NCBI GenBank assembly: GCA_036497565.1
Contig: DASXJE010000188.1
Coordinates: forward strand, 1-64,000
Origin: Mycobacteriales bacterium
GTDB lineage: Bacteria; Actinomycetota; Actinomycetes; Mycobacteriales; QHCD01
Direction: 5' to 3'
DNA: 64,000 nt
This document shows positions 41,060-43,629 of this stretch, piece by piece; positions within the stretch are counted from its first letter, which is position 1, and the number at the start of each line of letters is the position of its first letter. The position numbers and the translations under genes were made by a program. The notes under the pieces were generated by a model. It was not told the origin of the DNA. It saw only the letters and a program-made list of their open reading frames with translations, and did not search any database.

Positions 41060-41087
41060 CCAAAACGCACGACTAGTGCGTTTGTCC
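41060..41087 (+). repeat. palindromic element upstream of glmS
   Basis: AAACGCAC (41063-41070) and GTGCGTTT (41076-41083) form an 8-bp hairpin with a 5-nt loop, flanked by CC and GTCC. It is a member of the palindrome family found between glmS and acpS. It may act as the glmM terminator or as an operator for glmS. Confidence 0.8.
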
Positions 41088-41120: not shown

Positions 41121-42965
41121 GTGTGCGGAATCGTGGGGTACGTCGGCGACGGGCCGGCTCTCGCAGCCGTGATGGACGGGCTGCGGCGCCTGGAGTACCG
41201 CGGCTACGACTCGGCCGGTATTGCGATGGTCGAGCCCACCGGGGTGCTCTGCACCGAGCGCCGGGCCGGACCGCTGCGCAACCTCGAGAAGCACCTGGTC
41301 GACTCCGAGATCACGGCGCACACCGGCATGGGCCACACCCGCTGGGCCACGCACGGCGCGCCGACCGACGCCAATGCCCACCCGCACCTCGACTGCACCG
41401 GTGCGGTCGCGGTCGTGCACAACGGCATCATCGAGAACTTCGCGCCGCTGCGTACCGAACTCGAGGACCGCGGGCACGAGTTGCGCAGCGACACCGACAC
41501 CGAGGTCGTCGCGCACCTGCTCGAAGAGGTGCTGCCCGACGCCGAGTCGCTGGCCGACGCCGTACGCACGGTCATCCGCCGGTTGAACGGCGCCTTCACC
41601 CTGGTCGTGGTCCACCGCGACTTCCCCGGCCAGGTCATCGGGGCGCGCCGCAACTCCCCGCTCGTGGTCGGCGTCGGCGACGGCGAGATGTTCCTCGCCA
41701 GCGACGTGGCGGCGTTCATCGCCCACACCCGCGAGGCCGTGGAGCTCGGCCAGGACCAGGTGGTCGAGCTGCACGCCGACGGCTGCGTCGTCACCGACTT
41801 CGACGGCGAGCCGGCCGAGGGCCGGCACTTCCACGTCGACTGGGACATCGCGGCCGCGGAGAAGGGCGGCCACGACTACTTCATGCTCAAGGAGATCCAG
41901 GAGCAGCCGGCGGCCATCGCCGACACCCTGCGCGGCCGGTTGCTCGACGGGCGCATCGTCCTCGACGAGGAACGCCTCGACGACCAGGATCTGCGTGACG
42001 TCGACAAGGTGTTCGTGGTCGCCTGCGGGTCGGCGTACCACTCCGGGCTGCTGGCGAAGTATGCGATCGAGCACTGGACCCGGCTGCCGGTCGAGGTCGA
42101 GATCGCCTCGGAGTTCCGCTACCGCGACCCGGTGCTCGATCGGGACACGCTGGTGCTCGCGATCTCCCAGAGCGGCGAGACCGCCGACACCCTGGAGGCG
42201 GTGCGGCATGCGCGCGCACAAAAGGCGCGCGTGCTCTCGATCTGCAACACCAACGGCTCGCAGATCCCGCGGGAGTCCGACGCGGTGCTCTACACCCGGG
42301 CCGGCCCGGAGGTCGGCGTCGCCGCGACCAAGACCTTCCTCACCCAGGTGGCCGCCTCCTGCCTCGTCGGGCTGGCCCTCGCGCAGGTGCAGGGCAAGAA
42401 GTACGGCGACGAGGTCGCCCGCGAGTACGAGGCTCTGGTCGCGATGTCCGAGCAGGTGGCGCGGTCGCTGGCGACGGTCGAGCCGGTACGCCGGCTGGCG
42501 CGTGAACTCGCCGACTCCCAGGCGGTGCTCTTCCTCGGCCGACACGTCGGCTACCCCGTGGCGATGGAGGGCGCGCTCAAGCTCAAGGAACTGGCCTACA
42601 TGCATGCCGAGGGATTCCCGGCCGGTGAGCTCAAGCACGGTCCGATCGCGTTGATCGAGCCCGGGCTGCCGGTGGTGGTCGTCGTCCCGTCGCCGCGCGG
42701 GCGCGCCGTACTGCACGACAAACTGCTGTCGAACATCCAGGAGATCCGGGCCCGCGGTGCCCGCACCATCGTGATCGCCGAGGAGGGCGACGAGTCGGTC
42801 CGGCCATACGCGCACCATCTGATCGAGGTGCCGACCGCGCCGACGCTCTTCGCCCCGTTGGTGACGACGGTGCCGCTGCAGGTCTTCGCGGCCGAGCTGG
42901 CGCAGGCCCGCGGGTTCGACGTCGACAAGCCCCGTAACCTGGCGAAGTCGGTCACCGTCGAGTGA
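41121..42965 (+). CDS. glmS: glutamine-fructose-6-phosphate aminotransferase (isomerizing)
   Basis: Makes glucosamine-6-P from fructose-6-P and glutamine, the entry to UDP-GlcNAc. 614 aa with a GTG start placing the catalytic Cys at position 2 (after the cleaved Met), as required for the N-terminal nucleophile glutaminase. CGIVGYVGD, HTRWATHG and NGIIENF mark the glutaminase domain (1-240). Two SIS sugar-isomerase domains follow (ISQSGETADTLEA, then GRHVGYPVAMEGALKLKELA). The ending DKPRNLAKSVTVE is invariant in the family. No glmS ribozyme was seen, as expected outside Firmicutes. Confidence 0.97.
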   Translation: MCGIVGYVGDGPALAAVMDGLRRLEYRGYDSAGIAMVEPTGVLCTERRAGPLRNLEKHLVDSEITAHTGMGHTRWATHGAPTDANAHPHLDCTGAVAVVHNGIIENFAPLRTELEDRGHELRSDTDTEVVAHLLEEVLPDAESLADAVRTVIRRLNGAFTLVVVHRDFPGQVIGARRNSPLVVGVGDGEMFLASDVAAFIAHTREAVELGQDQVVELHADGCVVTDFDGEPAEGRHFHVDWDIAAAEKGGHDYFMLKEIQEQPAAIADTLRGRLLDGRIVLDEERLDDQDLRDVDKVFVVACGSAYHSGLLAKYAIEHWTRLPVEVEIASEFRYRDPVLDRDTLVLAISQSGETADTLEAVRHARAQKARVLSICNTNGSQIPRESDAVLYTRAGPEVGVAATKTFLTQVAASCLVGLALAQVQGKKYGDEVAREYEALVAMSEQVARSLATVEPVRRLARELADSQAVLFLGRHVGYPVAMEGALKLKELAYMHAEGFPAGELKHGPIALIEPGLPVVVVVPSPRGRAVLHDKLLSNIQEIRARGARTIVIAEEGDESVRPYAHHLIEVPTAPTLFAPLVTTVPLQVFAAELAQARGFDVDKPRNLAKSVTVE

Positions 42966-43000
42966 TCGCTGGTGGCCGATCCCGTGGACATAGCCGTGGA

Positions 43001-43239
43001 CAAAACCCACTACTAGTGGGTTGTGTACGCCCCGCACGGCGTGTCGTGGACCAAAACCCACTAGTAGTGGGTTTTGTCCAGCCCGGTCAGCTTGGTCGCC
43101 CCCGTCAGCCCGGTCGCCCCGGTCAGCCCGGTCGCCTTGACCAAAACGCACTCGGAGTGCGTTTTGGGGGTCGCGCACGGCGTGTCGCAGACCAAAACGC
43201 ACTAGGAGTGCGTTTTGGGGAGCTGCGAGTGCGTTTTGG
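43001..43239 (+). repeat. cluster of palindromic repeats between glmS and acpS
   Basis: Four hairpins and one half-copy. (1) AACCCACT/AGTGGGTT, 43004-43022. (2) CAAAACCCACT/AGTGGGTTTTG, 43052-43076, perfect 11 bp. (3) CCAAAACGCACT/AGTGCGTTTTGG, 43141-43167, perfect 12 bp. (4) the same arms, 43192-43218. (5) right arm only, 43228-43239. Loops are 3 nt and vary (ACT, AGT, CGG, AGG). The pair 1+2 with its spacer, including CGCACGGCGTGTCG, recurs as 3+4 exactly 141 bp later. The arms differ by a C-to-G change matched on both sides, so pairing is kept. Function unknown. Confidence 0.9.
43083..43136 (+). repeat. three 18-bp tandem repeats inside the glmS-acpS gap
   Basis: Three consecutive 18-mers close to CCGGTCAGCCCGGTCGCC (43083-43100, 43101-43118, 43119-43136), each with at most three differences. 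They lie between the two palindrome pairs. Confidence 0.85.
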
Positions 43240-43251
43240 GGGGTGGGCGCG

Positions 43252-43629
43252 ATGATCGTCGGTGTCGGGATCGACGTCGTCCCGGTCCAGCGCTTCGCGG
43301 AGTCGCTGTCCCGCACGCCCGGCCTCGTCGACCGGCTGTTCACCGCCGCCGAACAGATCACCGGCTCCGGCGAGCCGCGTACGCCGGAGTCGCTGGCCGC
43401 GCGGTTCGCGGCGAAGGAGGCGCTGGCCAAGGCGCTCGGCGCCCCGGCCGACCTGCACTGGGCCGACGCCGAGGTCACCGTGACCGACGCCGGTCAACCG
43501 CGGATCGAGGTCACCGGTACCGTCGCGGCCCGGGCGGACGCGCTCGGCGTCGACGCCTGGCACGTGTCGCTCTCGCACGACGGCGGCATCGCCAGCGCCG
43601 TGGTGATCGCGGAGTCCTCGGGACGTTAG
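43252..43629 (+). CDS. acpS: holo-[acyl-carrier-protein] synthase
   Basis: Attaches phosphopantetheine to acyl carrier proteins, 125 aa. Mg-binding motifs are [14 protein letters not shown] (Asp near residue 9) and the (W/F)xxKEA-type segment [28 protein letters not shown] is the third conserved motif. ATG 43252 is preferred over GTG 43243. It sits between the repeat cluster and nnr. Confidence 0.95.

Follow-up and report, generated by a model that had tools for sequence, protein, structure and literature searches.

Probable REPIN-like hairpin elements with a constant loop core and lineage-specific stems in a Mycobacteriales genome and its relatives

The gap between glmS and acpS, examined within a window of 64,000 nucleotides (contig DASXJE010000188.1, positions 1 to 64,000 of the forward strand), contains two hairpin elements on the plus strand, followed by an isolated half-arm ahead of the acpS ATG at 43252. 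Gene content and GC content indicate an actinobacterial host. The first element (42997–43080), which we term C-type for its CCCACT arms, runs from an outer TGGAC through a first palindrome, a linker, a loop core and a second palindrome to an outer GTCCA. Its left arm (43001–43025) is itself palindromic, CAAAACCCACT-ACT-AGTGGGTTGTG, with an imperfect inner end (GGGTTGTG), and is followed on the plus strand by the 8-nt loop linker GCCCCGCA (43029–43036), which is the freely varying part, and the loop core CGGCGTGTCG (43037–43046); the right arm (43052–43076) is the palindrome CAAAACCCACT-AGT-AGTGGGTTTTG. The second, G-type element (43138–43220) has an outer TGACC and CGCACT/AGTGCG arms, with the palindrome CAAAACGCACT-CGG-AGTGCGTTTTG on the left (43142–43166), the same loop core on the plus strand (43178–43187) and the palindrome CAAAACGCACT-AGG-AGTGCGTTTTG on the right (43193–43217). 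Neither these palindromic arms nor the half-arm and the degenerate palindrome described below are assigned a strand. Between the elements, and outside both, lies a GC-rich short direct repeat with a 9-nt period, CAGCCCGGT / CGCCCCGGT (43081–43133, plus strand), which has a 42-bp match in a Streptomyces nigrescens plasmid; this match concerns the direct repeat only, and the element itself has no match among plasmids and phages. The half-arm, GAGTGCGTTTTGG (43227–43239), ends 12 bp before acpS, where the initial annotation had reported it, and probably represents the remnant of a third element. The glmM-glmS gap, which lies one gene upstream of the two elements, holds a degenerate single G-type palindrome with 3 mismatches, CAAAACGCACGACTAGTGCGTTTGT (41061–41085).

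The four palindromes and the 141-bp repeat (84 nt at 77% identity) lie where that annotation placed them and are far beyond chance, with the palindrome pattern matching five times in the window, the fifth match being the one at 41061–41085, compared with an expectation of 0.00 from 100 shuffles. The duplication of the palindrome pairs is likewise real, but the unit had been misread, because each pair forms one hairpin and not two. The two palindromes of a pair, 51 bp apart, constitute one inverted repeat with arms of 27–29 nt that are 93–97% complementary and a loop of 24–26 nt, and together they fold into one long hairpin, an element of ~84 bp whose loop of ~20 nt ends in CGGCGTGTCG. A scan of the whole 64-kb window on structure only finds exactly two long hairpins, both of them the elements of the glmS-acpS gap. 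Folded as RNA, the element has a free energy between −48 and −58 kcal/mol (a z-score of about −8 to −10 relative to shuffles), and as single-stranded DNA it folds at about −35 kcal/mol, which is 8–10 standard deviations below shuffles.

The genome-wide motif search that the initial annotation proposed finds about 109 palindromes in the 4.8-Mb genome at up to 2 mismatches, and none in a reversed-pattern control, so the motif is far from being confined to this gap. Alignment of 51 full elements from 44 fetched regions shows that the spacing between palindromes is exactly 51 bp in all of them, with no indels, and only 7 single palindromes are present compared with the 51 pairs. Thirty elements have CCCACT arms and 21 have CGCACT arms, none is mixed, and the two types differ also in their loop centres and outer ends (TGGAC/GTCC in C-type, TGACC/GGTC in G-type). 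What had been read as a local compensating C/G exchange is therefore a genome-wide subfamily difference, and it may be a single ancestral one; within each subfamily there are no compensatory arm changes beyond it, and the outer flanks are not complementary above expectation. The loop core CGGCGTGTCG is present in almost all 51 elements. Identity between copies is 98–99% in the arms, 46% and 42% in the linker and 33–38% in unrelated flanks, such that the 8-nt linker is close to random while arms and core are near-invariant. Close double sites, of which 42997–43220 is an example, combine a C-type with a G-type element in 10 of 10 cases, and same-type neighbors are not seen (p about 7e-4). A third hairpin family, with arms TGATCAAGAGGGGATTC and the core variant CGGCGTTTCG, has at least three copies in the 380 kb sampled from this genome (L076:1949, L079:53 and L080:2747). 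The outer ends of the C-type elements (42997–43005 and 43073–43080 in the window) read TTGTCCA(C/G), which is close to the actinobacterial DnaA box TTGTCCACA, possibly by coincidence; the G-type ends differ.

The presence of two elements and a half-arm together in one gap could suggest a local array of duplicated operators or terminators peculiar to glmS-acpS, but about 50 other copies stand beside unrelated genes, and the corresponding gap of the sister genus (G001) is about 13–16 bp long and empty. The genome-wide distribution refutes such a local regulatory array, and we regard it as scarcely credible. The more general idea of an operator array, which the initial annotation had listed, is not supported either, since the 3′ ends of genes hold most of the elements, and the 20 proteins examined, nearly all of them encoded next to an element, are mostly mutually unrelated, with varied and largely housekeeping functions and no transposase among them.

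Among the relatives, the palindrome sequence itself was not found in any of the 298 other genomes searched within the order, but the comparison with related genomes reveals stems that differ and still pair. In the sister genus, CGGCGTGTCG is found inside inverted repeats of unrelated sequence (TGTTGATCATGCGGTTTCGGGACG... and CGCCGAGATCGCAGTTCACCAC...). Of the 12 core sites in a 328-kb sample of the sister genus, drawn irrespective of hairpin content, 6 fall within hairpins, compared with a fraction of 0.0005 (0.05%) of random positions, and among the 13,238 10-mers with at least 8 occurrences in this sequence, only the core and the overlapping GCGTGTCGCG have at least two copies in hairpins. 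In a structure-only search, the core is present in 5 of 9 long hairpins. A covariance model (R1) built on an alignment of 13 elements (A1) detects hairpins (E ≤ 0.01) in 30 of the 61 genomes sampled from the order; the genome of the window, the sister genus and G020 have at least 80 matches each, and the stems are specific to the lineage, for example CGAACTCGACGTTTTGGTCCT, CCGGTGGCGCGTTTTCTGACG, CCGTCGATCATGAAGTTGGCGG and TAGTGCGGCCCGAACTTTGG. The genome G010 has such a hairpin inside its own glmS-acpS gap. In the class sample, R1 matches occur in 38 of 247 genomes, including other families, with the exact core at most of the loci inspected, and in the phylum sample all 7 matching genomes belong to the same class; absences in both searches are weak because 17–20 candidates were scored per genome. 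In many G020 elements (e.g., L244:2112) the loop is largely palindromic, GACACGCCGGCGTGTC, so that the core is present on both strands. A scan of 85k species with the G-type sequence yields 11 scattered stretches with the palindrome; their titles name no actinobacterium, and the core does not occur in a hairpin in any of them. Viral contigs yield 22 stretches with single palindromes. With Rfam 15, no family exceeds its gathering cut-off, the window region giving only sub-threshold microRNA-precursor models and 20 carrier loci giving only tRNAs, and we found no paper among the open-licence articles searched that prints the core CGGCGTGTCG in such a context. The hairpin kind, with the same loop on different stems, is thus apparently a widespread and undescribed repeated genome element.

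The pairing of the stems is maintained while their sequence changes. In A1, 88.8% of cells are paired, compared with 57.6% after shuffling and at most 41% after sliding, and both sides have changed in 21 of 24 pairs. Across 33 hairpins whose stems share less than 70% identity, which were selected for pairing, each of 20 stem positions is paired in 82–100% of cases relative to an expectation of 23–36%, with three to four pair types per position and a prevalence of T-A pairs 5–9 positions from the loop; a gapped MAFFT alignment of unrelated stems (A3) was left out of the counting. Because of that selection, the association between core and hairpin rests on two unbiased tests, the structure-only scan and the 10-mer test. 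The claim in the initial annotation that the hairpin itself matters is supported by unrelated yet paired stems around an unchanged loop motif in different lineages, and not by the local C/G exchange on which it had been based. The arms of the relatives are mostly not self-palindromic although hairpin pairing is kept, and self-palindromic arms are peculiar to the genome of the window.

Turnover can be followed at one convergent gap in the well-sampled genus of G046, where 4 species have a hairpin with the core, 6 have another hairpin family without it and 13 have no long hairpin, so that hairpins have been gained and lost, or replaced, among congeneric species. Filled and empty sites in this one gap are too diverged to define insertion junctions or a target-site duplication. 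The coreless hairpins (L286, L292, L294, L295, L301 and L306) have arms such as GATCTTGCAGTTTCTGTC and TGATCAAGGAGTTTG, and they are possibly sister families of the same element kind.

All fetched element sites are intergenic. A codon-usage gene caller places 26 of 48 sites between tandem genes, 13 between convergent and 9 between divergent genes, with enrichment per bp in convergent gaps, and in tandem gaps the median distance is about 30 bp from the upstream stop to the element and about 118 bp from the element to the next start. The core has no preferred strand with respect to transcription (14 same and 17 opposite in the genome of the window, 8 and 14 in the sister genus). This placement just past stop codons, together with the enrichment in convergent gaps, is what would be expected if the elements were selected for their function as transcription terminators or 3′-end stabilizers, similar to TRIT and lacking a U-tract, with a conserved loop that a termination or processing factor reads in the RNA and with stem turnover reflecting a relaxed stem sequence. 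It is the strongest rival explanation, and it is further consistent with RNA folding energies between −46 and −58 kcal/mol (z-scores of about −7 to −10), with the constraint on arms and core in place while the linker is free, and with the different hairpins that congeners have at the same convergent gap. Nevertheless, with the core on either strand about equally often, an RNA reader would meet it in only about half of the transcripts, and divergent gene pairs account for 9 of the 48 sites. More than half of the congeneric gaps lack a long hairpin, and terminators do not need arms that are 98% identical at ~50 loci. An intrinsic terminator, a GC-rich hairpin followed by a T-run, has no instance by the tool's definition in 42900–43300, where the TTTT of the arm instead pairs with AAAA inside the stem. 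We therefore judge a purely terminator-based origin possible but rather unlikely, and because the placement is strand-neutral, a loop function in RNA is disfavored and a reader at the DNA level is favored. The bidirectional terminator suggested by the initial annotation stands as a possible effect of the elements, although not as a U-tract terminator by the tool's definition.

A comparator for such a role is TRIT, which is reportedly the Mycobacterium tuberculosis Rho-independent terminator model of RNIE, described by Gardner and colleagues in 2011 and cited in PMC3526491. The likeness consists in a recurrent mycobacterial hairpin downstream of genes. Some relatives (f8/g9) have hairpins such as CGAGCAGACACAAAAGCCCC...GGGGCTTTTGCGACTGCTCG with a CGGCGTGTCG loop, and TRIT is a possible named relative of the hairpins described here; if TRIT carries this loop, part of the family has already been named as terminators. 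Intrinsic terminators in general share the location at gene 3′ ends, but differ in having a T-run after the hairpin.

A reader at the level of double-stranded DNA would be provided by chromosome-binding sites, in which one or more nucleoid or replication proteins occupy two dimer sites 51 bp apart together with the loop core, and in each lineage the arms evolve in concert with the protein. The near-perfect palindromic arms of 23–25 bp in the genome of the window, their fixed 51-bp spacing (about five helical turns), the lack of indels in 51 copies, the sharp separation of constrained from free positions and the strand-neutral placement all suit such sites. In contrast, relatives keep the hairpin pairing without self-palindromic arms, when binding to the double strand would not require pairing at all, and the sites are freely lost and replaced in congeners. 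We consider chromosome-binding sites unlikely as the primary explanation, and less likely than terminators.

The explanation that we favor, with slightly more confidence than doubt, is that the elements are ~84-bp non-coding, REPIN-like, non-autonomous hairpins whose stems are lineage-specific while pairing and loop core are kept; a mobile palindromic repeat is also the best fit among the options listed in the initial annotation. Each element consists of a pair of inverted arms enclosing a loop of ~20 nt, made up of the variable linker and CGGCGTGTCG, and the hairpin, whether extruded or as single-stranded DNA, would be recognized through the loop core by a putative trans-acting enzyme, so that copies spread. 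Copies would survive mainly at gene 3′ ends, where they would be least harmful, and once placed they may act as orientation-independent hairpins that attenuate transcription or protect 3′ ends, and a terminator or 3′-end role can thus be compatible with mobility. The median length of convergent gaps is 127 bp with an element and 10 bp without, in keeping with insertion of the element. Mobility is inferred, and by itself it does not explain the pattern, since recent neutral copies should share their linkers, which are ~46% identical compared with ~98% for the arms; selection on the copies in place, or a change of the linker upon copying, is needed to account for this difference.

In their layout the elements are similar to the REPINs of REPIN-RAYT systems, which have conserved inverted ends and a less conserved spacer (PMC3116915), with which they share a hairpin-forming pair of inverted conserved ends, tens of copies, an intergenic location and rarer single palindromes. 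In their placement they are similar to REPs, short palindromic repeats that also have a high copy number and an intergenic location, and which lie between convergent and tandem genes near 3′ ends, form species-specific families and in many families have neighbors of a different subtype (PMC3733652). Ordinary REPINs moved by a RAYT (Y1) transposase would therefore explain the layout, the copy number, the 3′-end placement and the preference for mixed-type neighbors. Yet PF01797, the Y1/RAYT family, is absent from the genome of the window at E ≤ 1 and from 9 other carriers, which makes 10 of the 13 carriers tested, including the single-contig G046 and the high-copy G020, and no core hairpin adjoins any of the few Y1 loci found in other carriers. 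REPs are in addition defined by a tetranucleotide outside conserved stems, and no unpaired GTAG or CGTC tag is present at the stem ends of the aligned copies, where the flanks are TGGAC/GTCC (C-type) and TGACC/GGTC (G-type); conservation is instead in the loop, with a core that is constant across the class and stems that change completely, which is the reverse of the REP pattern. Ordinary RAYT-moved REPINs are thus highly improbable, and Y1/RAYT is rejected as the general mover. It should be considered that CGTC REPs also occur without a dedicated transposase, and that the word "actinobacteria" does not occur in the same article (PMC3733652). The elements are, then, REPIN-like in layout and REP-like in placement, but are set apart from both by the lack of tags, the lack of a RAYT and the conserved loop.

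Two other kinds of system provide partial parallels. MITEs are likewise short, non-coding, multi-copy and without a gene, and have inverted-repeat ends, but in the elements described here the hairpin spans the whole element, the stems vary freely between lineages, and no parental transposon was found among the transposase families searched. In the case of geminivirus-type stem-loops, a conserved loop in a stem of variable sequence is the nicking site of an HUH enzyme, and the same logic could be applied here, except that no HUH enzyme is linked to the elements, the family tested being Y1. Autonomous copies that carry their own protein were considered and rejected, since the genes of ~210–237 amino acids found between two nearby elements, which encode an OLD-type TOPRIM protein, a transglycosylase and a DUF559 protein, are mutually unrelated.

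These comparisons lead us to propose tentatively, with somewhat more doubt than confidence, a class-wide system in which a conserved putative protein (a nuclease, a transposase or a chromosomal factor) reads CGGCGTGTCG in a DNA hairpin, in which the stems may diverge provided that they pair, and in which each lineage amplifies its own stem families. What defines the known REP-type repeats is a conserved stem, together with a RAYT transposase in those cases in which the mover has been established, whereas a fixed loop on a free stem implies a different recognition rule and another enzyme; if a class-wide reader exists, it is the loop and not the stem that would define this kind of bacterial repeat. 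The core together with inverted arms is also a simple handle for annotating many actinobacterial intergenic hairpins, possibly extending to those of mycobacteria and antibiotic producers, and with it one can ask whether they are parasites, terminators or chromosome-organizing sites. The reverse strand of the core, CGACACGCCG (for example at 43037–43046), contains GACAC, the short motif reported for WhiA, and this provides a weak lead toward a class-wide reader of the core.
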